Shown piece by piece: positions 22,802-43,023 of a stretch of DNA of 64,000 nt (position 1 is its first letter; every line of letters begins with the position of its first letter). Source of the stretch: Asaia bogorensis (GTDB lineage: Bacteria > Pseudomonadota > Alphaproteobacteria > Acetobacterales > Acetobacteraceae); contig NZ_UEGO01000036.1 of NCBI RefSeq assembly GCF_900465345.1, positions 1 to 64,000 on the forward strand, given 5' to 3'. Both the position numbers and the translations under genes were made by a program. The notes under the pieces were generated by a model, which made no database searches, had not been told where the DNA came from, and saw only the letters and a list, made by a program, of their open reading frames with translations.

Positions 22802-23194
22802 CTACGAATGGTCCTGATCTTGTCTCCTGGGCGGCTCTTGCATGTCGCAAGGCATGCTTTTGTCCGTGTGATACGCCATGTCCTGCTGCTGGAGCACCAA
22901 CTCTGGGTGCAGAGCCGCCAGACGAAGGGCCATCTCTTCATCGGTGCGACCGTTCAGAACCCCTTTCAGAAGAAAATCGGTCGAGACACGAAGGCGATTG
23001 GAGAGAGACATGATGAGGAACACGCTTGGTGCGCGATCGCCTTTCTCGATCTTGTTCAGGGTCGAGGCGTCCACGCCCAGTAGGCGCGCGCATTCGCTCT
23101 GATTGGGAAAGACGAGTTCTCTTGCCCAGGTGATACGACGCCCGATGGCGCGTTGAACGATCGCAAGCGAGTCAGGGCGTTTGTTTTTGGCCAT
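22802..23194 (-). CDS. XRE-family transcriptional regulator
   Basis: 130 residues from ATG 23194 (MAKNKRPDS). The frame stays open to a TTG at 23224, but that start would lie inside an operator-like palindrome, so the shorter start is preferred. The HTH_XRE domain spans about residues 13-75 (RRITWARELVFPNQSECARLLGVDASTLNKIEKGDRAPS, then LSNRLRVSTDFLLKG). The Gln/Asp/Pro-rich C-terminal tail has no recognisable oligomerisation or protease-sensitive LexA-like domain. It is divergent from the short phage-side genes at 23318 and points at the RND operon. It is likely the regulator of the phage-like cassette, of the pump, or of both. Confidence 0.85.
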   Translation of the reverse strand: MAKNKRPDSLAIVQRAIGRRITWARELVFPNQSECARLLGVDASTLNKIEKGDRAPSVFLIMSLSNRLRVSTDFLLKGVLNGRTDEEMALRLAALHPELVLQQQDMAYHTDKSMPCDMQEPPRRQDQDHS

Positions 23195-23209
23195 GAGACA
23201 TTCATAGCA

Positions 23210-23224
23210 ATGGCTCATTGCCAA
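23210..23224. promoter_or_regulatory. Operator-like palindrome next to XRE start
   Basis: ATGGCT-CAT-TGCCAA, matching the ATGGCA-N3-TGCCAT consensus at 10 of 12 positions. It lies 15 bp upstream of the preferred XRE start, where binding would block the regulator's own promoter or translation start region. Confidence 0.5.
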
Positions 23225-23264
23225 ATCCAGAGGGGAATTGAGCGCCGTCTCTACGGCTATACCT

Positions 23265-23279
23265 ATGGCATATTGCCAT
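23265..23279. promoter_or_regulatory. Operator-like palindrome between XRE and phage-side genes
   Basis: ATGGCA-TAT-TGCCAT, a perfect 6+6 inverted repeat with the same arms as the site at 22583. It lies in the divergent region between the XRE gene and the gene at 23318, the classic place for a phage repressor operator. Confidence 0.65.
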
Positions 23280-23317
23280 ATATCGGGGTGAATCGAGTGG
23301 GTATCAGGAAAAATTCC

Positions 23318-23715: not shown

Positions 23716-24225
23716 ATGATGAGACGCGAGCCAGATCAGGTGCGAGATGAGAATGTGCCCACAGCCGAAAGGATGCGCCGTCATCAGTTCAGAAAAGAAG
23801 GTGATGCGCTGCGGCTGTGGTCGACAGTTGCCTGGTTGTACAAGGCCGGTGATATCGGGGACGACGAGGTGGCGGCGGCGCAACGCTGGCGCGCGGAATA
23901 TGACTATGCCGAGAGGGGGGTGGTCGAATTGCAAGGGGCGCGAACAGTCGCGGAGAAAGGCGATATTCACACATGGATGCTCGGGCGTGGCAAATGTGCG
24001 GCGCGGATGAGGCAGATGCACACGCTCATGGGGGATGGTCTTCACAGCCGCATTGAGATGATGCTGGTCAGGGAGATGAGTTTTCCTGATATGGCCAGAC
24101 TGATCTTCCCGGAAGGTACGCGCGCCCAGGCAAGAACCAAGACCGCAGCACAATGTGCCCTCGCATTGGAATGGCTGAGTGAGTTTTATAATAATAAAAA
24201 TATTGCAAATATAAATAAATTATAG
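23716..24225 (+). CDS. Hypothetical early protein, helical, possible regulator
   Basis: 169 residues from ATG 23716 behind a GGGGGTGGA ribosome site (an in-frame ATG at 23719 is equally possible). Mostly helical, with a basic N-terminus (MMRREPDQVRDENVPTAERM), an AAQRWRAEYDYAERG segment and a C-terminal stretch MLVREMSFPDMARLIFPEG that could be a helix-turn-helix. The last residues (EFYNNKNIANINKL) lie in an abruptly A+T-rich tract that also carries the next promoter. No family was recognised. Position between repressor region and terminase suggests a transcriptional activator or small terminase-accessory role; this is inference from place only. Confidence 0.65.
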   Translation: MMRREPDQVRDENVPTAERMRRHQFRKEGDALRLWSTVAWLYKAGDIGDDEVAAAQRWRAEYDYAERGVVELQGARTVAEKGDIHTWMLGRGKCAARMRQMHTLMGDGLHSRIEMMLVREMSFPDMARLIFPEGTRAQARTKTAAQCALALEWLSEFYNNKNIANINKL

Positions 24226-24231: not shown

Positions 24232-24255
24232 TAAAGAACACTGAAATAACTTTAT

Positions 24256-24585
24256 ATGAAAAATCCCGATATAAATGTCGGGGATGTGGTTGTGTGCAGA
24301 AATCTCCTGTTTGTCGTCGTGCATGTCGGTTTGAAGGATGCGGTTCTGAGTCCGCTGGTTGCAGCCTCGGAATTGCGTCATCGCGCGGATCTGGCCCTGG
24401 GGTGGGGTGATATTGCCGATGCGAACCTGCCCTCGGGTGATATGAGGGTCAGGGCAGTACCCTGCCTTCGCAGGAAGGCCAGTCTCGTCCGGCTGGGTTG
24501 TGTAGGTCCCGCCTGCGTTGCTCTGATCAGAGCACGCCTGAGGCTTGAAATGGCAGAAAAAGACCGTGGATGTGTCGCGTTTTGA
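24256..24585 (+). CDS. Small protein with weak MazF/PemK-like pattern
   Basis: 109 residues starting MKNPDINVGDVVVC. The order of a VGDVVV strand near the N-terminus, a DIADANLPSG segment and a C-terminal ARLRLEM helix after ASLVRLGCVG is reminiscent of MazF/PemK-fold proteins. The conserved Arg-Pro near the first strands is not present and no partner antitoxin gene is next to it. It may therefore be a decayed or repurposed toxin fold, or unrelated. It lies directly behind the A+T-rich promoter. The ribosome site is poor. Confidence 0.5.
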   Translation: MKNPDINVGDVVVCRNLLFVVVHVGLKDAVLSPLVAASELRHRADLALGWGDIADANLPSGDMRVRAVPCLRRKASLVRLGCVGPACVALIRARLRLEMAEKDRGCVAF

Positions 24586-24799
24586 CGCCCGATCCATCGT
24601 CGTTATCTGCGGTCAAGTCACCAGAGATCCGGATGGCCTCACAGATGAAATGTCGGAGCGTGAGGCAGATCAGACGTCCGTAGATGGTTCATGGCAGGCC
24701 TGATCGTTTGATCCGGTATCGTCATGAGAAATGTTCGATCCTGGTACGGACAGGTTTTTTTCAATGCACCATTCCCCGAGTTCAGGCAACGGAGTTGAA
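24586..24799. other. Leader region upstream of the small terminase
   Basis: 214 bp without a gene. It holds an inverted repeat GCCTCAC-N17-GTGAGGC (24636-24666) and two ATCCGG repeats. In phages, packaging start sites or late-promoter elements often lie close to the small terminase gene, but nothing here proves either. Confidence 0.4.
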
Positions 24800-25237
24800 A
24801 TGGACAGCAGACGCGTCATCCGGGCGCGCCCCAGGGGCAAGGCCCTTCAGAGCGTCTTTCTCGATCACCTCAAGAAGAGCGCAAATGTTTCGGAGGCGGC
24901 ACGCGCCGCAGGTATTGATCGCAAAACGGCTTATAACTGGCGTCGTGGCGATGGATTGTTTTGTGAGAAATGGAAGCAGGCGCTGGAAGAGGCAACAGAT
25001 CTTCTGGAGGCCGAGGCGCGGCGGAGAGCCATACACGGATACGAGGAGCCGCTGCTTTATGGGGGGCGGCTTGTTTGTGATGCCGAGGGCAATCCGGTAA
25101 CGCGGACACGTTACAGCGACGGGTTGTTGCGTATGTTGCTGCGTGCGCATCGCCCGGCGAGTTTCAGGGATACAGGTAAAAATGACGATGAACCTGAGCC
25201 GGCACTGACCCTGGGCGAGGGTGATGACACACTCTAA
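24800..25237 (+). CDS. Phage terminase small subunit
   Basis: 145 residues from ATG 24800, which has a GGAG ribosome site 6 nt upstream; an upstream frame to 24731 lacks one. The N-terminus holds a clear helix-turn-helix (NVSEAARAAGIDRKTAYNWR, about residues 25-44) for DNA recognition, followed by a helical oligomerisation region (WKQALEEATDLLEAEARRRA). A short acidic tail (DDEPEPALTLGEGDD) may contact the large subunit. It selects DNA for packaging. It overlaps the large terminase gene, the usual arrangement. The retained HTH suggests some sequence preference in packaging. Confidence 0.85.
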   Translation: MDSRRVIRARPRGKALQSVFLDHLKKSANVSEAARAAGIDRKTAYNWRRGDGLFCEKWKQALEEATDLLEAEARRRAIHGYEEPLLYGGRLVCDAEGNPVTRTRYSDGLLRMLLRAHRPASFRDTGKNDDEPEPALTLGEGDDTL

Positions 25238-26549
25238 GCCGCGGTTTGCGCTGACACCTGTACAGGAGGAAGCCAATCGCCTGCTTGGAGGCAGGGCCCG
25301 CCATATATTTCTTCGTGGCGGATCGCGCTCGGGCAAGACATTTGTGTTGATCCGGGCGCTGGTTGTCAGGGCCTTGCGGGAGCCGCACTCGCGGCATGGC
25401 GTCTTCAGGCACCGCCAGAATGCACTGCGAGCCAGCATCATCCAGGATACGTTTCCGAAAGTGATGCAATGCTGCTTTCCGCGACATCGGTACAAATGGG
25501 ACGGGCAGAGCAACAGGATCCTGTTTCCCAACGGATCGTCGATCCTCTTTGGGGGGCTGGATGATTCAGCGCGTACAGAAAAAATTCTCGGGCTGGAATT
25601 TGCGACGATCTATCTGAATGAAGCGAGCCAGATAAGCTATGGCGCGCGGAACATGTTGCTGACGCGTCTGGCACAGCGTTGTGGGTTGATGCCGCGGGAA
25701 TATATCGACGCCAATCCGCCGGCGACCGATCACTGGTTATACGCCGTGTTTGAAAGTGGCATTGAGCCTCGGTCGGGAATACGTCATGCGGACCCCTCGC
25801 TCTATGCGTCGATGGTCATGAACCCTGAGCAGAACCGCGCCAATCTCAGCGAGGCCTATCTGGGCCAGCTGGATGCACTGCCCGAACGCGATCGGAGGCG
25901 TTTTCTGCTGGGAGAGTATCAGACCGTTATCGAGGGTGCGCTTTGGCGGGTCGATATGTTTCAGCGCGCTGAACCGGTTTCTGATCAGCATCGCGACATT
26001 CTGCTTGGGCAGATGAAGCGTGTCGTCGTGGCGATCGATCCCTCAGGGGCCTCCGGGCCTTCGGATCTGGGTGCAGACGAAATCGGGATTGTCGTGGCCG
26101 CCATCGACCACAATGGAATCGGGCATGTGCTGGAAGATTGCTCCACACGTGACACGCCAATGGGGTGGGCCCGTCGGGCCATACAGGCGGCAGCGCTTTG
26201 GCAGGCAGACAGGATTGTGGCGGAACGCAATTTTGGTGGAGCTCTGGTGGAAGCGACGCTCAGAAGCGTCGATCCCAGGGCTGCGCTCAGAATGGTGACG
26301 GCGTCGCGTGGCAAGGCGGCGCGCGCCGAGCCTGTTGCGGCGCTCTATGAGCAGGGACGTGTGATCCATCATGGGCGCTTTGCGGCCCTTGAATCGCAGC
26401 TTTGTCTCTTCTCGAACCGAGGTTTTGGCGGGGCAGCCTCGCCAGATCGCGCGGATGCGCTGATCTGGGCGCTGAGCGATCTGATGATCGAGCCTCAGGC
26501 AGTGCCGGGCCGTTGGCAGGACCGGGGGTGGTTCAGTCTTTCACGATAA
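25224..26549 (+). CDS. Phage terminase large subunit
   Basis: 441 residues from ATG 25224 (a GTG at 25221 is the alternative). The N-terminal packaging ATPase has Walker A GGSRSGKT (about 32-39) and a Walker B-like IYLNEASQI, where the usual Asp is Asn, as in some other phage families. The C-terminal RNase-H-like nuclease has its acidic residues in VVAIDPSG, IVAERNFGG and SPDRADALIWAL. Both active sites therefore look intact and the enzyme should still pump and cut DNA. It overlaps the small subunit gene by 14 bp and sits 10 bp before the portal gene. Confidence 0.93.
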   Translation: MTHSKPRFALTPVQEEANRLLGGRARHIFLRGGSRSGKTFVLIRALVVRALREPHSRHGVFRHRQNALRASIIQDTFPKVMQCCFPRHRYKWDGQSNRILFPNGSSILFGGLDDSARTEKILGLEFATIYLNEASQISYGARNMLLTRLAQRCGLMPREYIDANPPATDHWLYAVFESGIEPRSGIRHADPSLYASMVMNPEQNRANLSEAYLGQLDALPERDRRRFLLGEYQTVIEGALWRVDMFQRAEPVSDQHRDILLGQMKRVVVAIDPSGASGPSDLGADEIGIVVAAIDHNGIGHVLEDCSTRDTPMGWARRAIQAAALWQADRIVAERNFGGALVEATLRSVDPRAALRMVTASRGKAARAEPVAALYEQGRVIHHGRFAALESQLCLFSNRGFGGAASPDRADALIWALSDLMIEPQAVPGRWQDRGWFSLSR

Positions 26550-26559: not shown

Positions 26560-28002
26560 ATGGATTGGGTGGCGCTTCAGGGACGATATGCCTCTCCTCC
26601 GGGTTTTTCTCCGAGGACACTGCGGCTTTTGGCCCTGCAAAGGGTTCTGGATGGAACGCAGTATGATGTTCTGCCCTATCCTTTTGCGACAGAGCGTAAT
26701 GCGGCGGGGGAATATATCCCCCTCTCCCAGCGGAGACCCTCTGTACGGACCAATCTGTGCAGGACTGTTGTCGATGAAGCGGTCTCGCTTTTATTCGGCC
26801 ATACGCATTGGCCGCTTGTTGTCTCCAGCGAAAAGGAGACGGCGGATGCCCTGAACCGCTTTGCCTGTGAGACTGGTCTGGCGTCACTCATGACGCAGGC
26901 GGCGATACGTGGCTCGGTCGGGTCGGTAGCGCTCTGGATCGAGCTTGTGGGCTCCAGACCGATGCCTCGCGTGCTTGAAACAGCTTATCTGACGCCTGAA
27001 TGGGATCGTGTGGGTGCCTTGCTGCGCGTGACCGAACGCTATGTCGTGACCGGGCAGGCATTGCGGCTGAGTGGTTATGCCATCGCGCCTGAGCGTGCGG
27101 CCATGCGCTTCTGGTGGCACCGATGCTGGGATCGTGATTGCGTGCGGGTTTTTGTGCCCCATCCCGTCGATCAGGAGGGGGATGCACTACTTGATGAAGA
27201 GCGGTCGCATCATCACGGTTTTGGCGTGGTGCCGATTGTATGGATCAGGAATTTTGGTGGGAGCGGTGGCGAGGCTGAGGGGGAATGTAGCTTCGAGAAA
27301 GCGATCGATACGGTCATCGAAGCTGATTATCTGCTTTCACAAGCCGGGCGGGGATTGAAATACGGCTCCGACCCGACGCTCGTGCTCAAGACGCCGGACA
27401 TACCCGAAGGCATGGCGCGACAGGGAGGGGCGGCCTCCGCCCTGACCTTGCCGCCTGAAGGCGATGCCAAGCTGCTGGAAATCAATGGCGCTGCGGCCGG
27501 GGCGGTTCTGGCGCATTACCGTGAATTGCGTCAGCTGGTGCTGGAGCAGTTGCACGGTAACCGTATGCACGGCGATCGTCTGGCGGCTCCACAATCGGGC
27601 CGCGCCATGGAGCTGATGTGTCAGCCCCTGATCTGGATGGCTGATCGTTTGCGTGGCGCTTATGGCGAAGGTGGTGTGCTGCCGCTGTATCGCCTGCTCT
27701 GTCATCTCTCGTCGGTTATGCCCGAAGGGATACAGATCGGGACGAAAACCTATCGGAATCTCGATGCGGGGGGACTCTCCCTGCATTGGCCAGCCTGGTT
27801 CACTGCTGATGAATCGGAACTACTGCCGCTCGCGCAGGGGCTTTGTGCGGCGCAGTCGGGGGGATTGCTGAGCCGTGAAACAGCGGCCCGGCTCTATGCC
27901 AGTGCCGCCGGCATTGCTGACCCGGCTGCCGAGTGGACGGAAATCAGGGCTGCAGAGACGGCCCGAACAAACCCTGTAGGGGGAAATGGACATGGTGGAT
28001 GA
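26560..28002 (+). CDS. Phage portal protein
   Basis: 480 residues, starting behind a GGGAGG ribosome site. The length, the TNLCRTVVDEAVSLLFG segment (about 65-81), the central beta domain (FVPHPVDQEG) and the late helical part (AVLAHYRELRQLVLEQLHGNRMHGD) fit SPP1 gp6-type portals. It forms the dodecameric DNA gate at the capsid vertex and docks the terminase. Its 3' end overlaps the scaffold-like gene by 11 bp. Confidence 0.9.
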   Translation: MDWVALQGRYASPPGFSPRTLRLLALQRVLDGTQYDVLPYPFATERNAAGEYIPLSQRRPSVRTNLCRTVVDEAVSLLFGHTHWPLVVSSEKETADALNRFACETGLASLMTQAAIRGSVGSVALWIELVGSRPMPRVLETAYLTPEWDRVGALLRVTERYVVTGQALRLSGYAIAPERAAMRFWWHRCWDRDCVRVFVPHPVDQEGDALLDEERSHHHGFGVVPIVWIRNFGGSGGEAEGECSFEKAIDTVIEADYLLSQAGRGLKYGSDPTLVLKTPDIPEGMARQGGAASALTLPPEGDAKLLEINGAAAGAVLAHYRELRQLVLEQLHGNRMHGDRLAAPQSGRAMELMCQPLIWMADRLRGAYGEGGVLPLYRLLCHLSSVMPEGIQIGTKTYRNLDAGGLSLHWPAWFTADESELLPLAQGLCAAQSGGLLSRETAARLYASAAGIADPAAEWTEIRAAETARTNPVGGNGHGG

Positions 28003-28429
28003 TGTCGATGCGCTTCGTCTCTCTCTTGCTGAACTTGCTGCTGAACGGGATTCCCTTGTTCAGGCGCATCAGGAGGAACTGGCCAGAGTAAAGGCAGCCG
28101 CACGCGATACTGTACTTGCCGGGGCGCTGCGTGCTGAAGCTGCGCGGCTTGGGGCCTATGACCCTGATCTGGTTGCAGCACATGTCGATCGCTCTGCCAT
28201 AACCTGGTCTGAAGAAGGGGCGCCGCAGGGCGTTGAAAAGGCGCTGCGCGATGCACGCGAGATGCGCCGCTTTCTTTTTCGGGAAACGCGACAGCGTTTA
28301 TCGGGCGAAACGCAGGAAAGCGCTGGGATCGTGCCGAAGCCGGCACCAGCCCAGGGACAGGATGCGCGCCAACTGCCCGCGCATGATTATGCCCTGCGCA
28401 AGCGGCAGTTTCTTGCTGGAATTATCTGA
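27992..28429 (+). CDS. Scaffold-like phage head protein
   Basis: 145 residues from ATG 27992, which is better spaced from the AGGGGG ribosome site than the in-frame ATG at 27986. The N-terminal third is a coiled coil (LRLSLAELAAERDSLVQAHQEELARVKAAA), followed by GAYDPDLVAAHVDRSAI and a basic C-terminus. Small coiled-coil proteins between portal and capsid genes usually act as scaffolds for procapsid assembly. No protease domain is present, so any scaffold removal must occur without a dedicated enzyme in this cassette. Confidence 0.7.
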   Translation: MVDDVDALRLSLAELAAERDSLVQAHQEELARVKAAARDTVLAGALRAEAARLGAYDPDLVAAHVDRSAITWSEEGAPQGVEKALRDAREMRRFLFRETRQRLSGETQESAGIVPKPAPAQGQDARQLPAHDYALRKRQFLAGII

Positions 28430-28453: not shown

Positions 28454-29809
28454 ATGGGTATCGAGAATTTTCCCGAGCAGCTTCGTGCTGCCATTCAGCA
28501 GGGTTTTCTGGCGCGCGAGTTCGAGACGGGGCTTCATTCCCGCCCAGGATTTCGAGCGATTGCGGATCGTGAGGTTTTTCCCAACGCAATTGGTGAGACG
28601 CTGACGAAAACGCGCAAGAGCCTCAAATCACCGGTAACGACGCCGCTTCTGCCGTCGGGTAACACGAATTTCGACAACGGGCTGTCACCGAGCGGCTGGT
28701 CGGTCGAGCAATACACTCTCAGTATCAATCAGTATGGTGATACGATTGATCTGAACATGGTCACGACCGGTGTTGGCATTGCCTCGCAGTTTCTGGCCAA
28801 TGCGCAGACAAATGGCATGCAGGCCATGCAGTCGCTGGACCGCCTGGCACGCAATGCACTGTTTGGCGGCGTTTCTGGCGGTGTCGGTGGTTATCTGGGC
28901 GGTAATACGCGTGTGGCGGCGACAGCGACAGCGAAAACCACGACGGTTTCGGTCGATGATATTCGTGGCTTCCAGTTTGTCATCGTGTCCGGTCTTGTGC
29001 GGCCTGTCGGAGCAAGTGCAGGCATGACGGTGACCATTGGCAGCGGGGTCTACACGGTTACCGGCGCCGTTCCGGACGCTGTGAATGTCTCGACGGCGCC
29101 CGGTGGTATCTCCGGGCAGTTACAGCTTTCTGCCTCGGCAACTATGGCAGACGCCACAGCGGGTATGGCGGTTGTTGCATCGACTGCCCCGCTGGTGCTG
29201 CGGCCCAACGGCAAGGCGACAACAGCAGATCTTAAAAGGGCCGATGGCGATACGCTCGGGATCCAGAACGTGCTGGCTGGTGTGGCTTCGTTACGACGTA
29301 ACAACGTACCCATGATCGATGGCGCGTATAATTGTTATCTTGACGATCTGCAGCTGCTTTCCCTCTTCAGGGATGCCGATTTCAAGTATCTTTATCGCGG
29401 GGCCTACGGGTCGGAGGAGTACCGGTCCGGGCAGGTGATTGAATTGCTGGGTGTGCGTTTTGTGCCGACGACCGAAGCGCCGCAGCAGGCCTCACTGGGT
29501 GGTGGGCCAATTCATCGTGCGCTGCTCTTGGGGCAGGGGGCTCTGGTAGAGGGGGACTGCGCCTGTGTGGGTCATTCGGATATCCCCGATGCCGAGCGGG
29601 CGCTTGTCGACATTGTGGACGGTGTGGCGATGGTCACCCGTGAGCCGCTGGATCGCCTGAAACAGATTATCGCGCAGTCATGGTACTGGATTGGTGGTTT
29701 TGCCCTGCCGACAGATGTGACGGCCGATGCCTCCATCATCCCGACAGCGACCAATGCCTATCTCAAGCGCGGTGTGGTGATCGAGAGTCTCGGCACGGAC
29801 GCTCTCTGA
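28454..29809 (+). CDS. Phage major capsid protein
   Basis: 451 residues. Position directly after portal and scaffold, plus the core pattern (SPVTTPLLPSG, WSVEQYTLSINQYGDTIDLNMV, AMQSLDRLARNALFGG, and the late NCYLDDLQLLSLFRDADF), fit the HK97-type coat fold, close to the N4-gp56/P22-like groups. Residues about 165-260 form an inserted beta-rich domain (GMTVTIGSGVYTVTGAV) that may stud the capsid surface. The length has no obvious cleavable N-terminal delta domain, consistent with the missing protease gene. Confidence 0.88.
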   Translation: MGIENFPEQLRAAIQQGFLAREFETGLHSRPGFRAIADREVFPNAIGETLTKTRKSLKSPVTTPLLPSGNTNFDNGLSPSGWSVEQYTLSINQYGDTIDLNMVTTGVGIASQFLANAQTNGMQAMQSLDRLARNALFGGVSGGVGGYLGGNTRVAATATAKTTTVSVDDIRGFQFVIVSGLVRPVGASAGMTVTIGSGVYTVTGAVPDAVNVSTAPGGISGQLQLSASATMADATAGMAVVASTAPLVLRPNGKATTADLKRADGDTLGIQNVLAGVASLRRNNVPMIDGAYNCYLDDLQLLSLFRDADFKYLYRGAYGSEEYRSGQVIELLGVRFVPTTEAPQQASLGGGPIHRALLLGQGALVEGDCACVGHSDIPDAERALVDIVDGVAMVTREPLDRLKQIIAQSWYWIGGFALPTDVTADASIIPTATNAYLKRGVVIESLGTDAL

Positions 29810-31926: not shown

Positions 31927-32040
31927 CGCGAGGATAATTTTTCTCGGGCTTTCGGCTTTTCAGTGTCTGCCTTGCGGCCAGGCTGTGTCGGATCGTTTAG
32001 CTCCCGCAAGACAGTTTTCGAAAAAAACAAAGGAATGTTC

Positions 32041-33960: not shown

Positions 33961-34280
33961 GTATGTTGCCTGAGACACTGGAATTCGGTTCGGGGCGCAA
34001 GCTCAGCCTGTGCGAACTCGATCCGGGCGACATGCTTGATCTGATCGAGGCGGCGGGGAGCGCTGTGTCCGGACCTTCGGCATCACCCTGGCTGGCCTAT
34101 GCACAGATGATCTGCTCGGTTCGCGCCATTGATGGTGTGCCGGTGCAGATGCCCCAGACCAAGGACGAGATCAAGGATCTGGCGCGCAGGATTGGCAATG
34201 ACGGGCTTGCAGCATTGCAGTCTGTTTATGACGGGGCGGTGCAAGAAAATGACGCCGTTATGGTGCCAGCAAAAAACTGA
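33957..34280 (+). CDS. Tail assembly chaperone, short form (gpG/E-like)
   Basis: 107 residues starting at TTG 33957, which is coupled to the tube stop and lies 9 nt after GAGGAG; ATG 33963 is the alternative. The sequence is helical (LCELDPGDMLDLIEAAGSAV, DEIKDLARRIGNDGLAALQ). This is the abundant chaperone that coats the tape measure during assembly. Its last sense codons GCA AAA AAC contain a slippery heptamer directly before the stop, so a longer form is expected. Confidence 0.85.
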   Translation: MSMLPETLEFGSGRKLSLCELDPGDMLDLIEAAGSAVSGPSASPWLAYAQMICSVRAIDGVPVQMPQTKDEIKDLARRIGNDGLAALQSVYDGAVQENDAVMVPAKN

Positions 34281-35472: not shown

Positions 35473-36342
35473 ATGGGTGTGTCGCTTCTCGAAATGGAAA
35501 ATGCCCTTGGGGCGATAGGCCTGATCGACAGGTCGGCACCGGTCGTGCTGGGTGATCTGATCCTCAGTGGGGCGGAAGTTCCGGACGAGCTTGTGATGGG
35601 TGGCCGGCAATTGCTGGTGATTCATCGGCTTCTCGGTGGCGGCCGTGTCATCGATGCTGTCGGGAATGATCCTGCGCGGCTGGTTTTGACCGGTCGCTTC
35701 ATCGGTCCCCTGGCGACGCTGCGGGCGAGACGGGTTGAGGCCATGCGTGAAGCTTCACGAGCGCTTGCCTTCTCGGTTGCTGATTTGTCAGCCAGGGTCT
35801 GGATTGCCGAATTTACCTGGTCGTATCAGGCGCGGGGCACGATTTGCCCCTACAGGCTTGTGTTGGAGCGTGAGGCTTTGCCGCCTGTTATTTCCCTGAG
35901 TATTGGGGAAATGGCGGGGGCTGATCTGGGTAGCGGTTTGAGCACGATAGCGGGCCTGCTGGGGGAGATGTCGGAGGCAGGATGGGTTGGTACGACAATG
36001 CTGACCTCACTGACAGGCCAAATCATGCCGGTTGCGCAGGTTCTGGGCGCAGGTGGTGGGGTGGCCCGCGCGCAGGCTGCTTTGAGCAAGGCAAGCGCGC
36101 TTTGGCAGACGGCCATGTCTGTATCGCGGGTGCCAACGGCGGCAGTTTCGGTGACGGCGCCTCTTTCCGTTGCCGCTCGTGAACTGGGACAAGTCACGCA
36201 GGACGCTGGAGCGGCAATGGAAGCCGGTGCGGTGAATGGCGCAGGCGCTCTGTCCCTGCTTTCACAAAATGCCGGGGCGTCTGTTTTGGGTGTCGAGGCC
36301 GGCAGTTACGCGAACCGGGCACTGCGCACTCTGGCCGGTTGA
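35473..36342 (+). CDS. Mu gp43-like tail/DNA-circularisation protein
   Basis: 289 residues. The N-terminal half (PVVLGDLILSGAEVPDELVMGG, VIHRLLGGGRVIDAVGNDPARLVLTGRFIG, CPYRLVLERE) matches the protein that lies between the tape measure and the LysM-like gene in Mu-type and alphaproteobacterial myophages. The C-terminal half is Ala/Gly-rich and helical and may replace tape-associated segments. It is likely a baseplate-proximal tail component. Confidence 0.72.
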   Translation: MGVSLLEMENALGAIGLIDRSAPVVLGDLILSGAEVPDELVMGGRQLLVIHRLLGGGRVIDAVGNDPARLVLTGRFIGPLATLRARRVEAMREASRALAFSVADLSARVWIAEFTWSYQARGTICPYRLVLEREALPPVISLSIGEMAGADLGSGLSTIAGLLGEMSEAGWVGTTMLTSLTGQIMPVAQVLGAGGGVARAQAALSKASALWQTAMSVSRVPTAAVSVTAPLSVAARELGQVTQDAGAAMEAGAVNGAGALSLLSQNAGASVLGVEAGSYANRALRTLAG

Positions 36343-36394: not shown

Positions 36395-36595
36395 ATGAAG
36401 ATACAGGTGACGTGCGACGATGTGTCGCTTTTCCATCTGGCGGTCCGCTATTTTGGTGATGCCTTGCAATGGTGGCGGATTGCCGCGTGCAACGGGATGA
36501 GCGACCCGGATCTGTCCGGCTTTGAGGTGCCGGTGCAGATCCTGCTGCCGGATGAGGCGTCAGTCGGGCAGACGGAAGGGTTGCCAGAGGTATGA
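36395..36595 (+). CDS. Small tail protein X (LysM-like)
   Basis: 66 residues. The pattern DDVSLFHLAVRYFGDALQWWRIAACNG ... QILLPD follows LysM/P2 gpX proteins that sit at the hub. Overlaps the hub gene by 4 bp (ATGA). Confidence 0.78.
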   Translation: MKIQVTCDDVSLFHLAVRYFGDALQWWRIAACNGMSDPDLSGFEVPVQILLPDEASVGQTEGLPEV

Positions 36596-37659
36596 CGGGC
36601 AGGATCCGAAGTTGGCAGGTTCGGCTTCTTGTCGATGGAACGAGCCTCGACGGCGTGCATGTTTGCGGTTTTCGACTACAATGCACGCGATATGAACGGT
36701 GCGACACGGCGCATATCGTTATCGCCGCGCAGGATGGATCTGCCCTGTTTTCCCGCCTTACCGGACGAAGCGGCTTTGACCGGCCGGATATCGAGTTGCA
36801 GGTGGTTGATCGCCTTGCGGGGGAGGCTGGATGGCGTAGCGTGTTTCACGGGGCGCTGGACGCCATAACGCGAGAGAATGATCCGGTATCGTTTCGTCTG
36901 GAGTGTCGGGACTATCTCTGTTTTTTGCTGGATACGCGTCTCACACGCTCATGGAGCAATCAGACGGCTATCGAGATTGTCCAGCAGGCTGCGCAGGCTG
37001 CCGGACTGGCGTTTCAGAGCGACCTGAACGGGAACGATATCGCTGGGGATTATTATTGCGGGCAGTTCTGGCAGCTGGAGCACAGACGTTTGTCCGCCAG
37101 TGCGCAGCATCGCTATCAAACGGCTTTCGATCTGGCTTTTTCGTTGGCGCGTGATCACGGCTATGAATGTCAGGCCCGTGGACGAGCAATCATCATCAAC
37201 CGTCCACCAGATGCCGATAGTGGTCAGCTTTTTGAACCAGACGGCATGACGATGCAGCATTTTCGTTATGATTTCGGTCTGAGTGGGGCGGTATCGGTCG
37301 GTGTGCGCTCGTGGGATTCGCGCCAGCGCGCGAGAAGCGAAATCTTTTATGATGGGCAGGAATTTTCCACAGAGCCCCCTGCATCGGGTGCAGCGCTTTA
37401 TACGTTTCGGGGGCCTGGCCTGCGCATGGACGATATCAAACGATTGGCGCAGGGGAAGCATCGTCGGATCGTCTCTCATGCCTGTGAAGCCAGGCTCTCC
37501 TTGCCAGCAATTGCGGGGCTGGAGCCGCGTCATTTCATGAAGCTGGGAGGTGAGATGATTGATCGACCAAGGACATTGTCGGTGGATGCGGTCGATCATT
37601 TTTTCGATCTCTCCCGGGGATATCGGCAGAAAGTCACGCTTCGGGACCGTATCTTCTGA
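36592..37659 (+). CDS. Phage tail hub / late control protein D
   Basis: 355 residues. The N-terminal barrel (LDGVHVCGFRLQCTRYERCD), the helical TAIEIVQQAAQAAGLAF part and YQTAFDLAFSLARDHGYECQARG region fit P2 gpD/Mu gp44 hub proteins, the gp27-like adaptor between tube and spike. The C-terminus (FMKLGGEMIDRPRTLSVDAVDHFFD, then YRQKVTLRD) is also typical. Overlaps X by 4 bp and is followed by the spike gene. Confidence 0.85.
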   Translation: MTGRIRSWQVRLLVDGTSLDGVHVCGFRLQCTRYERCDTAHIVIAAQDGSALFSRLTGRSGFDRPDIELQVVDRLAGEAGWRSVFHGALDAITRENDPVSFRLECRDYLCFLLDTRLTRSWSNQTAIEIVQQAAQAAGLAFQSDLNGNDIAGDYYCGQFWQLEHRRLSASAQHRYQTAFDLAFSLARDHGYECQARGRAIIINRPPDADSGQLFEPDGMTMQHFRYDFGLSGAVSVGVRSWDSRQRARSEIFYDGQEFSTEPPASGAALYTFRGPGLRMDDIKRLAQGKHRRIVSHACEARLSLPAIAGLEPRHFMKLGGEMIDRPRTLSVDAVDHFFDLSRGYRQKVTLRDRIF

Positions 37660-37666: not shown

Positions 37667-38320
37667 ATGATGGATAATCCGGTATGGGCAGCAGCCCACC
37701 AGATGCGTGTAGCCCATGCGGTGCATGGGATCGTTTGCGCGGTGGACCCTGCCAGTCACGCGGTGAAGGTGCGTTTGCAGCCGGACGATGTTGAAACAGG
37801 CTGGCTGCCTGATGCAGCATTGACGCAAGTGGGTGACTTGCGTTTGTCCTGTCCCTGTGCGGTGGGCACCCAGGTTTTGCTCATGCCGATCGAGGGTGAT
37901 GGCGAGAATTTTGTCATTATATCGGTATTGTTCGATGTGGTGGCAGGGCCCGCGATCTCACCTCAGACGGGTAAGGTGGCGCAACCTGGAGAGTTGCTCG
38001 TACGTGCCGGGTGTGGCGCACCTTCAAAGGAGGGGCAGAGCCAATCCGGGGAGGGGGGCTGGTTCCATATCCGGCGCGAAGGGGTCTCCTTTGGGGTCGG
38101 CGACCTGCGCTGTGTCATTGGTCAATCGTCCATCGTACTATGTGCGGGGAAGGTTCAGATGAGTCTGGGGGCTGGCGGCCTGGAAATATCCGGCGCGGGT
38201 GTGAGGGTTTCTGGGGGTAATCTTTCTGTTTCAGGCGGTGATGTACGCACAGATTTGCATAGTCTCGACGCCCATGTGCATCCGTACGCCAATGGTATGA
38301 CAGGAAAGCCTGTCGGATGA
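37667..38320 (+). CDS. Baseplate spike protein V
   Basis: 217 residues from ATG 37667, with a second ATG at 37670 better spaced from AAGGGG. An OB fold (VHGIVCAVDPASHAVKVRL, GWLPDAAL) is followed by a beta-helix-like stretch (GGLEISGAGVRVSGGNLSVSGGDV). The tip ends LDAHVHPYANG: the HxH there matches the metal-binding apex of P2 gpV and Mu gp45 spikes. The spike pierces the outer membrane of a target cell. It overlaps W by 4 bp. Confidence 0.87.
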   Translation: MMDNPVWAAAHQMRVAHAVHGIVCAVDPASHAVKVRLQPDDVETGWLPDAALTQVGDLRLSCPCAVGTQVLLMPIEGDGENFVIISVLFDVVAGPAISPQTGKVAQPGELLVRAGCGAPSKEGQSQSGEGGWFHIRREGVSFGVGDLRCVIGQSSIVLCAGKVQMSLGAGGLEISGAGVRVSGGNLSVSGGDVRTDLHSLDAHVHPYANGMTGKPVG

Positions 38321-38691
38321 GTGATTTTTATCATGTGTTTGGCGAGGATCTGCAGTGCGACTCTGCGGGCGGCCTTTGCGAGGCCTCGGGAGACATGCTG
38401 ACACGACAATCCATATTGCGCCGGCTGTGTACAAACCCCGGTGCCTATCTCTGGCATGTCGATTATGGGGCTGGCCTGCCTGCCCGCATTGGTATGCCTA
38501 TTGCCGAGGTTGAAACCCGGGGGCTGATTACAAGTCAGCTCGGCCTTGAAGCTGGTGTCGATCAGACCCAGCCTGTGACAGTCGAACTGCAGGCCAAGGC
38601 GCCGGGTACTTATCTGTGCACGATCACCTATAGCGGGCTCGATGGATCAGACCGGCAGACATTCACATTCAATCAGGATGGCACGATCTGA
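38317..38691 (+). CDS. Baseplate wedge protein W (gp25-like)
   Basis: 124 residues. The gp25-like lysozyme-related fold is suggested by LTRQSILRRLCTNPGAYLWHVDYGAGL (about 28-54) and the later ITSQLGLEAGVDQTQP stretch. It initiates sheath assembly at the baseplate. Overlaps the spike gene by 4 bp (ATGA). Confidence 0.83.
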   Translation: MSDFYHVFGEDLQCDSAGGLCEASGDMLTRQSILRRLCTNPGAYLWHVDYGAGLPARIGMPIAEVETRGLITSQLGLEAGVDQTQPVTVELQAKAPGTYLCTITYSGLDGSDRQTFTFNQDGTI

Positions 38692-38730: not shown

Positions 38731-39873
38731 ATGGCGTTTTCTCTGCGTTCTTTCTCATCCCTTGTTCAGACGGCCATCGTCACGGCGCAGGCGAGTTGCT
38801 CCGGAAAACTGACACTTGATATCGGCACACCAGGGCGTGCGCTTGTCGAGAGCGTTTCGGGACTTGGGCTCTGGCTGCAATACCTGCTGATGCAGGTGCT
38901 GTGTCGGACACGGCTTGCGACATCCAGTGGCGTTGATTGCGACAGCTTCGTCGGGGACTTTGGCATGACACGACTGCCTGGCGTGAAGGCGCTGGGGTCC
39001 GTCACCATGACCTGCTTTTCCTTTCAGGATATCTCGGCTGTGGTGCGGCCGGGCGTCACGGTAAGGACAGCGGCGGCTGTGACGTTTCAGGTTATCGCCG
39101 ATACGACCCACGAACGTTGGTCGAGTGCGACGCGGGGGTATGTCCGCCCGACTGGCGTAGCCTCGCTTACCTTGCCCGTGGAGGCTCTTCTGGAGGGCGT
39201 TCAGGGTAACGTTGCCACAGGTGCCATATCACTTATGGGCACGTCGGTTGCCGGAATTGATATTGTCACCAATGAAGCCGCTTTTGCCAATGGGGCAGAT
39301 CAGGAGAGCGACGCCCAGCTGCGGCAGCGCTTCCCGCTCTGGCTTGCCGCCAAGGCGAGCGCCTCACGCGCTGCGGTGGAAAGCGCCCTAGCCGAAACCC
39401 AGAATAATCTGGACTACGCGATTTTTGATGGTGCGGCGCCGGATGGAACGACGCGTCAGGGGTATTTCACGGTTGTTGTCGACGATGGGAGTGATGCCGT
39501 GCCTGATCAGGTGCTGCGTCGTGTGTATGCTCAGGTTGATGCCTGCAAGGCCCTTGGTGTTGGCTTTGCCGTCCAGCGACCCGTCATGTTTTCTGTCTCG
39601 GTTTCGATGGTTGTGAGCATAACTCTCGGCGCTGATGCCGATACGGTGCAGCGTACTCTGCTCGAGGCCATCAGCGCTGATATCCGGGCGTCACGTATCG
39701 GGGGCGGCTACGCCTATAGTCGGCTTGGCTATGTGGCCTATGCGGCGGCGGGTGATGCGGTGCTGTCGATATCGCAGATACGCCTGAATAACGCGCAGGA
39801 AGATATTGTGGGGGAAGCCAGTCAATCGCTTTTCCCAGGCACGATCTCCGTACAGATCGTTCAGGAGGGGTAA
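38731..39873 (+). CDS. Baseplate protein J
   Basis: 380 residues. The family core VTNEAAFANGADQESDAQLRQRFPLWLA (about 173-200) and the region GYFTVVVDDGSDAVPDQVLRRVYAQVDA are characteristic of P2 gpJ/Mu gp47 wedge proteins. The C-terminal LGYVAYAAAGDAVLSISQI also fits. It builds the baseplate wedge. The stop overlaps the next start by 1 bp (TAATG). Confidence 0.87.
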   Translation: MAFSLRSFSSLVQTAIVTAQASCSGKLTLDIGTPGRALVESVSGLGLWLQYLLMQVLCRTRLATSSGVDCDSFVGDFGMTRLPGVKALGSVTMTCFSFQDISAVVRPGVTVRTAAAVTFQVIADTTHERWSSATRGYVRPTGVASLTLPVEALLEGVQGNVATGAISLMGTSVAGIDIVTNEAAFANGADQESDAQLRQRFPLWLAAKASASRAAVESALAETQNNLDYAIFDGAAPDGTTRQGYFTVVVDDGSDAVPDQVLRRVYAQVDACKALGVGFAVQRPVMFSVSVSMVVSITLGADADTVQRTLLEAISADIRASRIGGGYAYSRLGYVAYAAAGDAVLSISQIRLNNAQEDIVGEASQSLFPGTISVQIVQEG

Positions 39874-41108
39874 TGCCGAAATTCAACAGTTATTTTCCAA
39901 TCCCCTCTATCGGTGGGGCGGAAGTTCTTGTCGTTGCGACATCAGATGGTGTCGAGACGCTCAATGCCACAGCAAGCCAGATTGCCGGCGCACCAGCCGA
40001 CTCACCGGCCAGCGGTGAATTCTTTGCCGAGGAGGGTGCCAAGGTCAGTCGCTATGGCGACCGGTTCTTGATCGGCGCTGCCGCCGATTATCCGGCGCTC
40101 AATACGCGTGACGTAGACCGACAGGACTGGCTTTCAGCGTTGATGGCGACGACGTCCATCGGGCCCTGGGCGCTGGAAAATGCCCAGGCGGCATGCCTTG
40201 CCCGGTTTGGCAACAGTGCCTTTGTTGCAGGATCACGTACGTCCGATGCACTCAAGTCACGCGACAAGCTGGGTCATGTTCCCAGTTCGATCGGGATGGC
40301 AGCCTGGGGGATCGCTGATGATACAACGAGCCCGACCCAGACCACAGCCTATGCTTATTACGGTGAGGCCTGGCGTATGCCGGGCGTCAATTACCAGCCG
40401 AGCTTTGTCATGGAGCTTGAGGCCGTCAATCTGGGCGGACCAGCTTACGGTGTGTCGACACCCTATCATCCGAATTGCGGTGGCGGCACCTACGCCATAC
40501 AGATCGGTGCCGGTGGAGGGCAGACCGAAGGAACGGCTGATTGTGAGGCCGGGATTGTGTTCGTCAATAATCCTGATTCCTGGAAAACCGGTATTCTGTT
40601 CAGCAACACGTCGCTTGCCGGAACGAATGGTAATGACGGTGGCTATGGAAACGCTGTCTCGATGGCGTGTAACCAGGGCATTGAGTGGCGCACACCAGAG
40701 ACGCGGGAACATGTGCAGGGGCTGGATGCCGGGGCCATGCTCTTTTCGACCGTAACGCGCACCGCAAACGGCCAGCGTGTGCAGTTTTCGGATGATGGTG
40801 TGCTTGTGACCAATATGGCGGGGCAACTGCTCTTCTCGGTATCGCCCAATCCGTCGCCTACCAATACGCTCAATATACAGGCCGGCAGCGGTCTCGCTGC
40901 TGCGGGACTATATGTGCAGAAGGGTGATGGTGGATCGCCTAATCTTGGTCTGTATCCTGCTGCGGGTGGGGAAATACAGATGTCATCGCCCGTCGCCAGC
41001 CCGGGAGCTGCGGTACCTGCGAAGGCAGAAGGTGGTTTTCTGCATCTGAACGTGAACGGCACGGATTATCGCGTCCCGCTATTCAGTGTTGAGCAGGTGG
41101 GTGGCTGA
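39873..41108 (+). CDS. Tail spike or fibre-like protein inserted between J and I
   Basis: 411 residues. In P2 and Mu, J is followed directly by I; here a large beta-rich protein sits between them. The N-terminus (FNSYFPIPSIGGAEVLVVATSDG) looks like a particle-attachment part; the central portion (MPGVNYQPSFVMELEAVNLGGP, GIVFVNNPDSWKTGILFSN) and an end with DGVLVTNMAGQLLF resemble phage receptor-binding spikes. Coupled to J by TAATG and to I by TGATG, so made at similar levels. Host-recognition role is inferred. Confidence 0.65.
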   Translation: MPKFNSYFPIPSIGGAEVLVVATSDGVETLNATASQIAGAPADSPASGEFFAEEGAKVSRYGDRFLIGAAADYPALNTRDVDRQDWLSALMATTSIGPWALENAQAACLARFGNSAFVAGSRTSDALKSRDKLGHVPSSIGMAAWGIADDTTSPTQTTAYAYYGEAWRMPGVNYQPSFVMELEAVNLGGPAYGVSTPYHPNCGGGTYAIQIGAGGGQTEGTADCEAGIVFVNNPDSWKTGILFSNTSLAGTNGNDGGYGNAVSMACNQGIEWRTPETREHVQGLDAGAMLFSTVTRTANGQRVQFSDDGVLVTNMAGQLLFSVSPNPSPTNTLNIQAGSGLAAAGLYVQKGDGGSPNLGLYPAAGGEIQMSSPVASPGAAVPAKAEGGFLHLNVNGTDYRVPLFSVEQVGG

Positions 41109-41767
41109 TGGCACTTCTGCGAGACCGGGATATGGATGGGCTTCGGGCAACTGACCGGAAGCTTTTGTATGACACGGGTATAGCACCCGGTACGGCGCGC
41201 GATTTCGCTCGCCGTATGCGCCTTCTGCTCCCGCAGGGATGGTTTCCAGCCTATCGGGGTGATGAGTTGGAAGAAGCGCCAGTGTTGCAGTCGCTCCTGA
41301 CCGGGTTCGGGGCGGTACTGGCCTATATATGGCAGCTGATGGGGGTTGTGCGAGCCCAGACGCGCCTTGGGACGACGAGTGGTGCCTTTCTGGATATGGC
41401 ACTTATTGATTATTTCGGATCCGGAAAAACTGCGCGCCTGCCCCTGGAAAAGGACAGCCATCTGCGCCGACGCATTGCTGCAGATCTGGTAGCGCCACGC
41501 AACACGCGACAGGCTGTGTCAGAGGCCGTGCGTCAAATCGCTGGTGCCGCCCCCCGGATTATCGAGACGGGGACTGTGCGCGATTGCGGTGCATGGTGTC
41601 ATCTGGGTGGTTATGGCGCTGTGCGCAGCCGGTATGGGACGCGACATGGCGGTCAGTTTGTCATCGAGGTTTTTCCGAAACTGCCGGTTCAGCAATTCGA
41701 ACTATACGCCGCCATCAAGGCGGTAAAGGCGTGCGGCGTGATCGCATGGGTAAGGATGGAAGCTTAA
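41108..41767 (+). CDS. Tail protein I
   Basis: 219 residues. The LDMALIDYFGSGKTARLPLEKDSHLRRRIAADLV part (about 95-128) and position behind J match the gpI/Mu gp48 family that links baseplate to fibres. The stop overlaps the fibre start by 1 bp (TAATG). Confidence 0.78.
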   Translation: MALLRDRDMDGLRATDRKLLYDTGIAPGTARDFARRMRLLLPQGWFPAYRGDELEEAPVLQSLLTGFGAVLAYIWQLMGVVRAQTRLGTTSGAFLDMALIDYFGSGKTARLPLEKDSHLRRRIAADLVAPRNTRQAVSEAVRQIAGAAPRIIETGTVRDCGAWCHLGGYGAVRSRYGTRHGGQFVIEVFPKLPVQQFELYAAIKAVKACGVIAWVRMEA

Positions 41768-43023
41768 TGGATCGTCCAATCATCTATTCAGGCGCCGTGC
41801 CCTTTGATACGGATCTCCTGCGTCTTGGCCGCTACGCGAAGGAAGGTGTGGGACGACTTGCAGAGATCCTGCTGGGTAGCCAGACGGTTATGGCGTCGGG
41901 TCTTGCTTGTGTGGTCTCATCATCAGATCTGTCGGTCTCTGTCGGGCCGGGAACGATCATTGCGCCCTATGCGCTGGATGGCTCCCATATCGGAAGTGTT
42001 TCTGCGGGGCTCGCAGCGGCGCCCGCGATTGTTCCGAGCCTGTTTTACAACGACGAAGTCCAGCATATTCCTGTTTCTTTGACTGGTGCTACGTTAACGC
42101 TCTTTGCGATCTGCAGCGAGCAGGATGACAGTCCGGATGTTCTGCCTTTCTATAATGCCGATCAGCCGGACCAGACCATGGCGGGGCCTGATAACCGCGG
42201 TAAGGCGCTGCCTACGCGCAGGACGGGGCGCATCGCGTTTGTCATGGCTTCCGATCCGCCAGCCGTCGCCGGTGCTGTGGTTGTGCCCCTCTATGAGGTG
42301 ACAATTCCTGCGGGCGCACAAACCCTGTCGGGGGTTGTGGCACAGCCGGGGTCAGCGTTCATGCCGCATTTGACCCAGTTTGCGACGAGGGATTTTGCCC
42401 AACAGGTCAGTCAGCCTTACGCTGTTTGCGCGACGAGCGGTCTTTTGACCATTCCGGACTGGGCCAAACATGTCGAACTGCGGCTTATTGGCGCGGGCGG
42501 CGGCGGTGCGTCTTGCAGTGTTATCTCTCCTGATGCCGGGGCTTTTTCGGGAGCGGGTGGTGGTGCCGGGGGCGATGCATGGGGGATCTATGCGCTCGAT
42601 CCGGCGCGCGACAGCACATTGTCGGTCACGATCGGTCTGGGTGGCGGTCCGGATCAGAAAGGTGGGCCGAGCTACGTAACCTATGGCGGCCAGCCCCTTC
42701 TCTCTGCCGATGGGGGAGAAGCTGGATATTTTTCTGCCGCACGGAATTCCTGCGGCGGCAGCGGCGGGGGTGCTGCTGGCGGGATTCTGTGGAACCAGAA
42801 TGGTGGCGCAGGGAGTGACGGGCAGTTCGGCAATCTGGTTTTCGCCGGGAACGGTGCCGATGGACCATGGGGCGGTGGTGGCAAGGCAGGGGCGTTGCTC
42901 GGTCTGACTGCCACCAAATACGGGGCAGGTGGCGGAGGCGCCTATATGGCCCGCCAGGCGGGAGAGGTGACAGCCGGTGGGCGGGGCTTTCAGGGGTGCC
43001 TGATCTATCGGTTTCTCTATTGA
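41767..43023 (+). CDS. Glycine-rich tail fibre/adhesin
   Basis: 418 residues from ATG 41767. The N-terminal 130 residues (DRPIIYSGAVPFDTDLLRLGRYAKEG, ISVGPGTII-like SVGPGTIIAPYAL) are an attachment domain common to fibre proteins. Residues about 235-418 are dense in Gly runs (GAGGGG, SGAGGGAGGD, GGSGGGAAGG, WGGGGKAG, GAGGGGAY) separated by short variable loops. This resembles polyglycine-II sandwich adhesins at fibre tips, where loops between Gly strands set receptor choice. It is the last gene of the cassette and no chaperone gene follows. Confidence 0.8.
   Translation: MDRPIIYSGAVPFDTDLLRLGRYAKEGVGRLAEILLGSQTVMASGLACVVSSSDLSVSVGPGTIIAPYALDGSHIGSVSAGLAAAPAIVPSLFYNDEVQHIPVSLTGATLTLFAICSEQDDSPDVLPFYNADQPDQTMAGPDNRGKALPTRRTGRIAFVMASDPPAVAGAVVVPLYEVTIPAGAQTLSGVVAQPGSAFMPHLTQFATRDFAQQVSQPYAVCATSGLLTIPDWAKHVELRLIGAGGGGASCSVISPDAGAFSGAGGGAGGDAWGIYALDPARDSTLSVTIGLGGGPDQKGGPSYVTYGGQPLLSADGGEAGYFSAARNSCGGSGGGAAGGILWNQNGGAGSDGQFGNLVFAGNGADGPWGGGGKAGALLGLTATKYGAGGGGAYMARQAGEVTAGGRGFQGCLIYRFLY

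Follow-up and report, generated by a model that had tools for sequence, protein, structure and literature searches.

Do the phage genes at positions 22802-43023 of the window belong to a prophage, or to a particle that the host has made its own? The window is the whole 64,000-nucleotide stretch of the Asaia bogorensis contig NZ_UEGO01000036.1 that was analysed. An earlier note on this DNA had proposed a domesticated, contractile-tail particle akin to the gene transfer agents (GTAs). We place the probability that the cassette is a host-domesticated particle packaging host DNA, a contractile-type GTA and not an ordinary prophage, at about 0.7. The earlier proposal is partly supported: position, purifying selection, presence in all nine Asaia genomes and lack of exact edge repeats favour domestication, and searches for a common lysis gene found none.

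Anatomy and edges of the cassette

Profile searches with PHROG, Pfam and NCBIfam showed that genes for packaging, head, contractile tail and baseplate follow one another without a break in a cassette of about 20 kb. The families matched were TerS, TerL, portal, scaffold, major head protein, sheath, baseplate hub, spike, baseplate J and fibre, with the hub and spike among the matches that were weak or under the Pfam cut-off. The packaging, head, neck, contractile-tail and baseplate content read by the earlier note is borne out by these matches, and the named frames are open. The same searches gave no match within the cassette to an integrase, replication, protease or lysis gene, in agreement with that note. 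The genes downstream of the probable control region are as follows.

24256..24585, +, small conserved protein with no assigned function (orthologs 29-83%; no family match)
24731..25237, +, terminase small subunit (phrog_4044)
25221..26549, +, terminase large subunit, nearest to PBSX type (phrog_979; TIGR01547 under its cut-off)
26560..28002, +, portal (phrog_145/64)
27986..28429, +, scaffold protein (PF06810 over cut-off)
28454..29809, +, major head protein (phrog_1357; 64% to the coat protein of Komagataeibacter phage phiKX1)
29878..30294, +, probable head-tail connector (phrog_14539, function not annotated; role inferred from position)
30347..30937, +, probable neck/tail-completion protein (phrog_14605, function not annotated; role inferred from position)
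30940..31926, +, probable neck/tail protein (phrog_13532, function not annotated; role inferred from position)
32035..33531, +, tail sheath (phrog_23)
33535..33960, +, probable tail tube (phrog_12993, function not annotated; role from position)
33963..34280, +, probable tape-measure chaperone (phrog_20383, function not annotated; role from position)
34472..35461, +, probable short tape measure, 329 aa, hypervariable sequence (role from position)
35473..36342, +, baseplate/tail protein (phrog_36820, function not annotated; 39% to phiKX1)
36592..37659, +, baseplate hub, gpD-like (phrog_52; PF05954 under cut-off)
37670..38320, +, baseplate spike, gpV-like (phrog_9992; PF04717 weak)
38317..38691, +, baseplate protein (phrog_975)
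38731..39873, +, baseplate J (PF04865 over cut-off)
39873..41108, +, 411-aa tail protein, no known fold (no family match)
41108..41767, +, tail protein, gpI-like by position (TIGR02242 weak; phrog_26379)
41767..43023, +, tail fibre (phrog_863/6202; PF21722 over cut-off)

Several listed ORF starts are probably too early; the ORF start list and ortholog alignments point to candidate starts at 23716, 29878, 32035, 37670 and 41767. In TerL, a GxGKT-like motif and several Asp residues are invariant in an alignment of 12 sequences. The gap between the genes flanking the tape-measure slot stays at 0.95-1.3 kb in relatives. The 411-aa protein had no match in the PHROG, Pfam or NCBIfam profiles, INPHARED, phiKX1 or a PDB sequence search, and its AlphaFold model has a mean pLDDT of 27. 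Its identity is 86-88% in six Asaia relatives and 98% in G149, and it is fragmented in G307.

At the left edge given in the earlier note (22802), an XRE-type repressor gene that runs divergently from the cassette reaches its 3' end. On the right, the fibre gene stops at 43023 and a convergent cytochrome-c gene (43066-44763, Pfam) ends 42 bp on, the distance that had been given for the host respiratory operon. Flanking repeats, not visible by eye, were also not detected in a computed search for exact repeats: the longest exact direct repeat between the left and right edges is 13 bp, at the level of the shuffled control (200 shuffles, mean 12.4, maximum 16). Of the marks of a functional prophage (integrase, att sites, replication genes), the cassette offers neither a gene match nor exact edge repeats.

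A common chromosomal site, purifying selection and a host-like tree

The same gene order was found in all nine Asaia genomes and in Swaminathania, Neokomagataea, Gluconobacter, Tanticharoenia, Acidomonas, Brytella and two further genera. The cassette lies at one orthologous site, with the RND operon on its left and/or Hsp33/aminotransferase genes on its right, and the conserved position that the earlier note had asked about is seen across genera; the dehydrogenase/respiratory operon that it took as the other neighbour is not universal among relatives. Eight Asaia relatives and Swaminathania share order and site and carry 22 or 23 of the 23 genes, the missing one being the tape measure, while the sheath, found in 9/9 Asaia genomes, is fragmented in two drafts. 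Ten further regions had both flanks (5), the left only (2), the right only (2) or neither (1, G009). Among named loci, repressor and TerL were present in 35 of 66, with RND directly upstream in 15 of these 35 and the remaining 20 belonging to Gluconobacter. Sporadic presence with many pseudogenes had been named as an observation against domestication. Every Asaia genome carries the cassette; most of the family is without it, and of 397 family genomes 30 have the tail gene, counting one whose match is weak (28%). The GTA definition, as excerpted from PMC9662315, calls for particle proteins derived from Caudoviricetes, which the PHROG/Pfam matches indicate, and for full endogenization, to which the shared site across genera and the lack of an integrase match and of exact edge repeats correspond. 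It further asks that the particle package mostly random host DNA, be unable to take up its own genome whole (about 20 kb for this cassette) and deliver DNA to other cells.

Decay and loss were seen as well. G046, a cassette-free genome, retains a TerS stub at the cassette site, and portal, sheath and tail genes are broken in G. morbifer (L110). In drafts of A. platycodi, A. astilbis and A. prunellae, which are 85-95% complete, the cassette is broken at several places; only in A. platycodi are flank genes broken as well. The complete-looking genome G025 has one short baseplate gene (199 aa).

Purifying selection, which the earlier note had proposed to look for in terL, portal and coat, is evident in all three, with dN/dS of 0.04-0.09, 0.05-0.16 and 0.03-0.06, respectively; values were 0-0.05 for the tube and 0.06-0.15 for baseplate J. 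Several smaller genes gave 0.2-0.45 in Asaia, and in one pair the repressor reached 0.38 and the tape measure 0.84. When RpoB and cassette trees of 12 taxa were compared, seven of nine splits were common, a number reached by 0 of 2000 permutations, and a Mantel test gave 0 of 999. The seven shared splits agree with the vertical inheritance and co-diversification of the excerpted GTA definition (PMC9662315). Two splits conflict with RpoB, and within Asaia G327/G228 conflict with the flank trees. Twenty of 22 genes tested diverge in step with the remaining cassette (rho 0.70-0.94). Between most Asaia species, however, cassette proteins diverge by 17-25% where RpoB differs by 1% or less, and this fast divergence counts against the GTA reading, known GTAs being described in the same excerpt as slowly evolving. 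Synonymous divergence of the cassette exceeds that of the left flank and is about that of the right flank; recombination may contribute.

The earlier note had proposed to look for lysis genes in the rest of the genome. Searches with Glyco_hydro_108 (3 of 20 genomes) and Phage_lysozyme (11 of 19 cassette genomes) yielded no lysis gene that all genomes with the cassette share. All six Asaia/Swaminathania genomes of the Phage_lysozyme search have at least two lysozyme matches each, so an Asaia lysin may exist; flanks of the lysozyme loci are common within some Asaia pairs but not across all genomes.

Conserved palindromes at a divergent repressor

Upstream of the structural genes lies a probable control region with these features.

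22551..22565, unstranded, operator-like palindrome with 2 mismatches, 32 bp from the next palindrome
22583..22597, unstranded, operator-like palindrome ATGGCA-N3-TGCCAT, exact
22802..23224, -, XRE/HTH_3 repressor, divergent from the cassette (Pfam PF01381; PHROG repressors)
23210..23224, unstranded, operator-like palindrome at the repressor start, 2 mismatches
23265..23279, unstranded, operator-like palindrome, exact, between repressor and cassette
23716..24225, +, conserved protein, C-terminal half maybe sigma region 4-like; candidate activator/antiterminator

The repressor also gave RstR/DicA-like NCBIfam matches under cut-off. In each of the 30 regions scanned it is adjoined by two or more palindromes with no more than 2 mismatches, and the 32-bp spacing of the left pair is seen again in several relatives; of seven cassette-free genomes, none showed such palindromes within 1 kb upstream of RND. 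Over the whole window the palindrome is not enriched (7 found, 4.6 expected). The 23716..24225 protein possibly resembles sigma region 4, a likeness of middling strength; a PDB sequence search returned weak rows (best E 0.019). The divergent repressor, the conserved palindromes and the possibly sigma-4-like protein form a probable switch.

We do not claim a wider repressor regulon. The core motif occurs at seven places in the window's genome, as frequently as a reversed control, two of them at the cassette locus within 700 bp, and the 15-bp form at 11 places versus one for the control. Of three unlinked sites viewed, two are within ORFs and the third separates a DUF2252 gene from a GH32 gene; a supposed link to a Gluconobacter locus did not hold. 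Control of the RND pump by the left palindrome pair is a weakened idea, since the pair persists in Gluconobacter in the absence of RND.

Competing explanations and known systems

The main rival is a PBSX-like particle: here too a domesticated contractile phage would package host DNA, but its tail would serve to kill related strains and not to deliver DNA. PBSX and PBSX-like Bacillus particles share with the cassette a contractile tail and an XRE-type repressor, and the best NCBIfam match of the cassette TerL is the PBSX family TIGR01547, under its cut-off (E 3e-20, 72.9 bits, cut-off 105); as excerpted from PMC8347963, PBSX-like particles package 9-13 kb of host DNA and are bactericidal. We nevertheless regard this rival as unlikely. 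Between species, fibre divergence keeps pace with that of the other cassette genes (rho 0.76), giving no sign of fibre swapping. No match to a lysis or immunity gene was obtained in the cassette, whereas in the PBSX-like region of B. pumilus lysis genes form part of the late cassette (PMC8347963, same excerpt). PBSX systems differ too in host (Bacillus).

Position, trees, selection and the absence of exact repeats at the edges led us to reject the readings as an ordinary, a recent defective or a split prophage. A single prophage lineage, still mobile or split, that inserts again and again at one favoured site and draws on helper functions encoded elsewhere would fit the related head genes carried by other elements in these genomes (G000 contig C9, TerL 63%) and by phiKX1, an integrase-bearing temperate phage in the excerpt of PMC8566455; it would also fit nine IMG/VR contigs of 5-22 kb with the 411-aa gene whole or in part. 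It is made very improbable by the lack of exact edge repeats, the same site and spacing across genera, the host-like cassette tree, the single repressor match in each of the 26 genomes of genus code g55 and the deletion relic at the same site. The absence of mobility genes from the cassette, decay in G. morbifer and loss in G046 would suit a recent defective prophage heading for loss, but good assemblies show mostly open frames, and dN/dS is low for the main structural genes across several genera; we think this extremely unlikely. Sheath, probable tube and baseplate genes could equip a contractile injection device whose head genes were kept for another use without DNA packaging; as the TerL motifs do not vary over 12 sequences, and as TerL, portal and coat rank with the more constrained genes, we lend that idea hardly any credence.

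A domesticated particle that packages host DNA is quite likely, and the chances that it also delivers DNA to recipients, as a true GTA, seem even. A 20-kb working gene set inherited with the chromosome in several genera of acetic-acid bacteria suggests that these hosts build their own phage-like particles, perhaps for DNA passage between cells. An ancient contractile-tailed temperate phage would have been domesticated in the Asaia-Gluconobacter-Acidomonas ancestor, losing integration, replication and lysis genes and retaining terminase, head, short tail and baseplate. The GTA-like operon, inherited with the chromosome, would be held off by the adjoining XRE-type repressor at palindromes on both sides of its gene until relief of repression let the possibly sigma-4-like regulator switch it on in some cells. 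TerS/TerL would package pieces of the host chromosome in place, because the element has no visible means of excision or self-replication; an unlinked lysin would lyse the cell, and the particle would inject its DNA into kin for recombination. Whether this constitutes a new, independently domesticated contractile-tailed GTA lineage, at one site in at least nine genera, with an XRE repressor in cis, flanking operators and a sigma-4-like activator, we consider evenly balanced.

Like the type I alphaproteobacterial RcGTA and CcGTA, the cassette is a vertically inherited, repressed head/tail/terminase cluster, and its HTH repressor recalls RogA, which acts over the activators GafY/GafZ in CcGTA (PMC9632790, PMC11150451, in excerpt). 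It differs in its contractile tail, in the repressor adjoining the cassette and in lacking the RcGTA marker GTA_TIM (PF13547), which matched the Caulobacter control but none of 20 genomes, 19 of which carry the cassette. Bartonella BaGTA and Brachyspira BhGTA are domesticated phage particles that move host DNA, as the proposed particle would; their description as tailless or non-contractile in the excerpt of PMC9662315 sets them apart. No title or abstract among the literature matches listed described a GTA in acetic-acid bacteria. Should host DNA pass to kin in these particles, a phage of another type would have given rise to GTAs once again, in hosts that grow readily, have industrial uses and live with insects; this would give a second testable alphaproteobacterial system with repressor, operators, candidate activator and structural genes side by side. 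The particles might then account for some of the mitomycin-induced myovirus-like particles of three Gluconobacter strains and Acidomonas methanolica, whose DNA was not sequenced, as excerpted from PMC8566455; mitomycin C yielded particles in only 15 of 177 strains there, and these may come from prophages other than the cassette.

The Komagataeibacter phages phiKX1 and phiKX2 (LC644975/6) are, unlike the cassette, 53-kb temperate phages with integrase (PMC8566455, in excerpt). The portal-to-fibre order of phiKX1 is that of the cassette at 30-64% identity, and phiKX2 has coat and sheath as in phiKX1. phiKX1 has no match to the cassette TerL, TerS, tape measure or 411-aa gene, and at the expected tape-measure position it carries a 742-aa hypothetical protein, versus 329 aa in the cassette.

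Gene content and regulation of the cassette

The window comes from an Asaia genome of 3.38 Mb. Open reading frames and family searches placed an XRE-type repressor, transcribed divergently, at the left end of the phage-derived cassette. Next in order come a conserved protein that looks like a regulator, a small protein of unknown function, TerS, TerL, portal, scaffold, coat and three neck or connector proteins whose roles were assigned from position. The sheath, a probable tube, a probable chaperone and a short probable tape measure form the middle. The right part encodes the baseplate hub, spike, J and further baseplate proteins, a 411-aa protein with no relatives in the family libraries searched, another tail protein and a fibre.

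22551 and 23210, degenerate copies of the palindrome ATGGCA-N3-TGCCAT
22583 and 23265, exact copies of this palindrome
22802..23224 (-), XRE-type repressor
23716..24225 (+), first cassette protein, regulator-like
34472-35461, probable tape measure
39873..41108, 411-aa tail gene

Family searches gave no match in the cassette to genes for mobility, replication, protease or lysis, and exact repeats at its edges did not exceed shuffled controls. The earlier note's observation of a packaging and tail cassette devoid of mobility, replication and lysis genes was confirmed. The length of the probable tape-measure gene was kept among relatives and its sequence hardly at all, save for a short conserved C-terminal motif.

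Because the palindrome count across the whole window (up to two mismatches) was no more than chance (7 versus 4.6 expected; 19 of 100 shuffles reached 7), the case for the palindrome rests on clustering and conservation. In all 30 scanned regions that carry the repressor, 22 of them full regions and eight named loci, at least two sites lay next to it, and none of seven regions without the cassette had one within 1 kb upstream of the RND operon. The two site clusters, one on each side of the repressor gene, suggest putative autoregulation with looping. The first cassette protein had a predicted fold of moderate confidence (pLDDT 70), and mostly sigma factors appeared among the top VIA-align rows for its C-terminal half, a resemblance that is only suggestive. 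The repressor and regulator-like protein may form a switch analogous to that of CcGTA, in which the repressor RogA is described as acting over the activators GafY and GafZ (PMC9632790; PMC11150451). Several palindromes of the same type also occurred in two Gluconobacter loci (L218, ~4971-5060; L219, ~5035-5180), where they lie between the gene for a POT-family transporter and one that has no Pfam match; the motif may serve other regulators too.

Chromosomal site, spread and loss

TerL relatives, some of them prophages, were found in 60 of 397 genomes of the family, and the 411-aa gene in 30, including one weak 28% match. The sheath was present in all nine Asaia genomes, fragmented in two drafts. 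In eight Asaia relatives and Swaminathania, the cassette genes have the RND operon on one side and the dehydrogenase genes on the other. Among ten further regions compared, five had both flanks in common (G022, G025, Brytella, Tanticharoenia and Gluconobacter wancherniae), two the left only (Acidomonas and Neokomagataea), two the right only (both from g55, a genus code that includes Gluconobacter and Neokomagataea) and one, in genome G009, neither. The conserved position across Acetobacteraceae that the earlier note had proposed to check was found as a site shared in many genera, with one or both flanks in nine of these ten. Three more g55 regions had the right flank in two cases and the left in one. 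Since Brytella and G. kanchanaburiensis have no dehydrogenase operon next to the cassette, the Hsp33 and aminotransferase genes are the deeper neighbours. The diverged cassette of G009 (L145/L146) lies elsewhere on the chromosome, without a recognisable repressor, and has a single operator-like palindrome immediately ahead of its first gene.

Twenty full regions had 21 to 23 of the 23 cassette genes detected, the tape measure being the usual missing one. Repressor and TerL occurred together in 35 of 66 named loci, 15 of these with RND immediately upstream, and the repressor had a single match in each of 26 g55 genomes.

In genome G046, which has no TerL match, ~1.3 kb separates the RND gene from the first gene of the right flank, and a stub in this interval matches TerS residues 21-88; the simplest reading is that this genome once had the cassette and later deleted it. 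Intactness was scored in 40 regions, with start-codon artefacts set aside. Broken cassette genes were seen in drafts of A. platycodi, A. astilbis and A. prunellae (completeness 85-95%), of which only A. platycodi also had broken flank genes, and one baseplate gene was short in G025. The cassette of G. morbifer G707 (L110) looks truly decayed, with a shortened locus and broken portal, sheath and tail genes.

Selection, inheritance and particle function

Nei-Gojobori dN/dS was calculated for pairs with dS under 1.5, so the most diverged pairs were excluded. Wherever measured in Asaia, Gluconobacter and Neokomagataea, values were low for TerL, portal and coat, the genes in which the earlier note had proposed to test for purifying selection, and also for sheath, tube and baseplate J. 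Smaller cassette genes in Asaia reached 0.2-0.45, and the tape measure gave 0.84 in one pair. A tree of seven cassette proteins had seven of nine splits in common with the RpoB tree of 12 taxa, whereas label permutations reached four at most. Within Asaia, the cassette tree matched the flank trees on several pairs but disagreed on G327/G228. With the tape measure left out, 20 of 22 cassette genes diverged jointly (rho 0.70-0.94; repressor 0.23, tube 0.54), and the corresponding values for flank genes were 0.43-0.95. For most Asaia species whose RpoB differs by 1% or less, the cassette proteins are 17-25% different, which together with the tape-measure dN/dS counts against a slow-evolving GTA.

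The constraint on TerL, portal and coat argues that the cassette packages DNA; as it carries no excision or replication genes, the substrate would most likely be the host chromosome in place. A PBSX-like killer particle, which sequence alone cannot separate from a GTA, is the less likely alternative: the fibre (rho 0.76 with the rest of the cassette) gives no sign that these species swap it, and the cassette had no match to a lysis or immunity module. For these reasons a GTA is favoured. The GTA-like interpretation in the earlier note is partly supported, having gained strength on inheritance, selection and site. PMC8566455 reports that 15 of 177 strains yielded particles after mitomycin C; this group includes three Gluconobacter strains and Acidomonas methanolica (44-nm head, 75-nm tail). 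Particle DNA from these four was not sequenced in that study, and their particles could be the cassette's particle or other prophages.

Related phages and second copies

The Komagataeibacter phage phiKX1 (LC644975) resembles the cassette from portal to fibre in matching order (30-64% identity), but has no match to its TerL, TerS, tape measure or 411-aa gene. The best INPHARED matches of TerL were two Synechococcus phages (47%); the 411-aa gene had none in INPHARED and matched nine IMG/VR contigs, the longest ~22 kb. Extra copies in G008, G085 and G365 mean that this gene is not confined to the cassette site. Those at ~203-214 kb of G008:C2 and ~28-37 kb of G085:C13 have a phage lysozyme gene at a distance of 7-9 kb and perhaps belong to separate prophages. 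A second element related to the cassette, cut by the contig ends, lies on contig C9 of genome G000 (L063/L064). It matches the cassette in TerL (63%), coat (73%) and sheath (49%), but its genes past the tube do not; G149 and Asaia sp. W19 (L125) have similar places.
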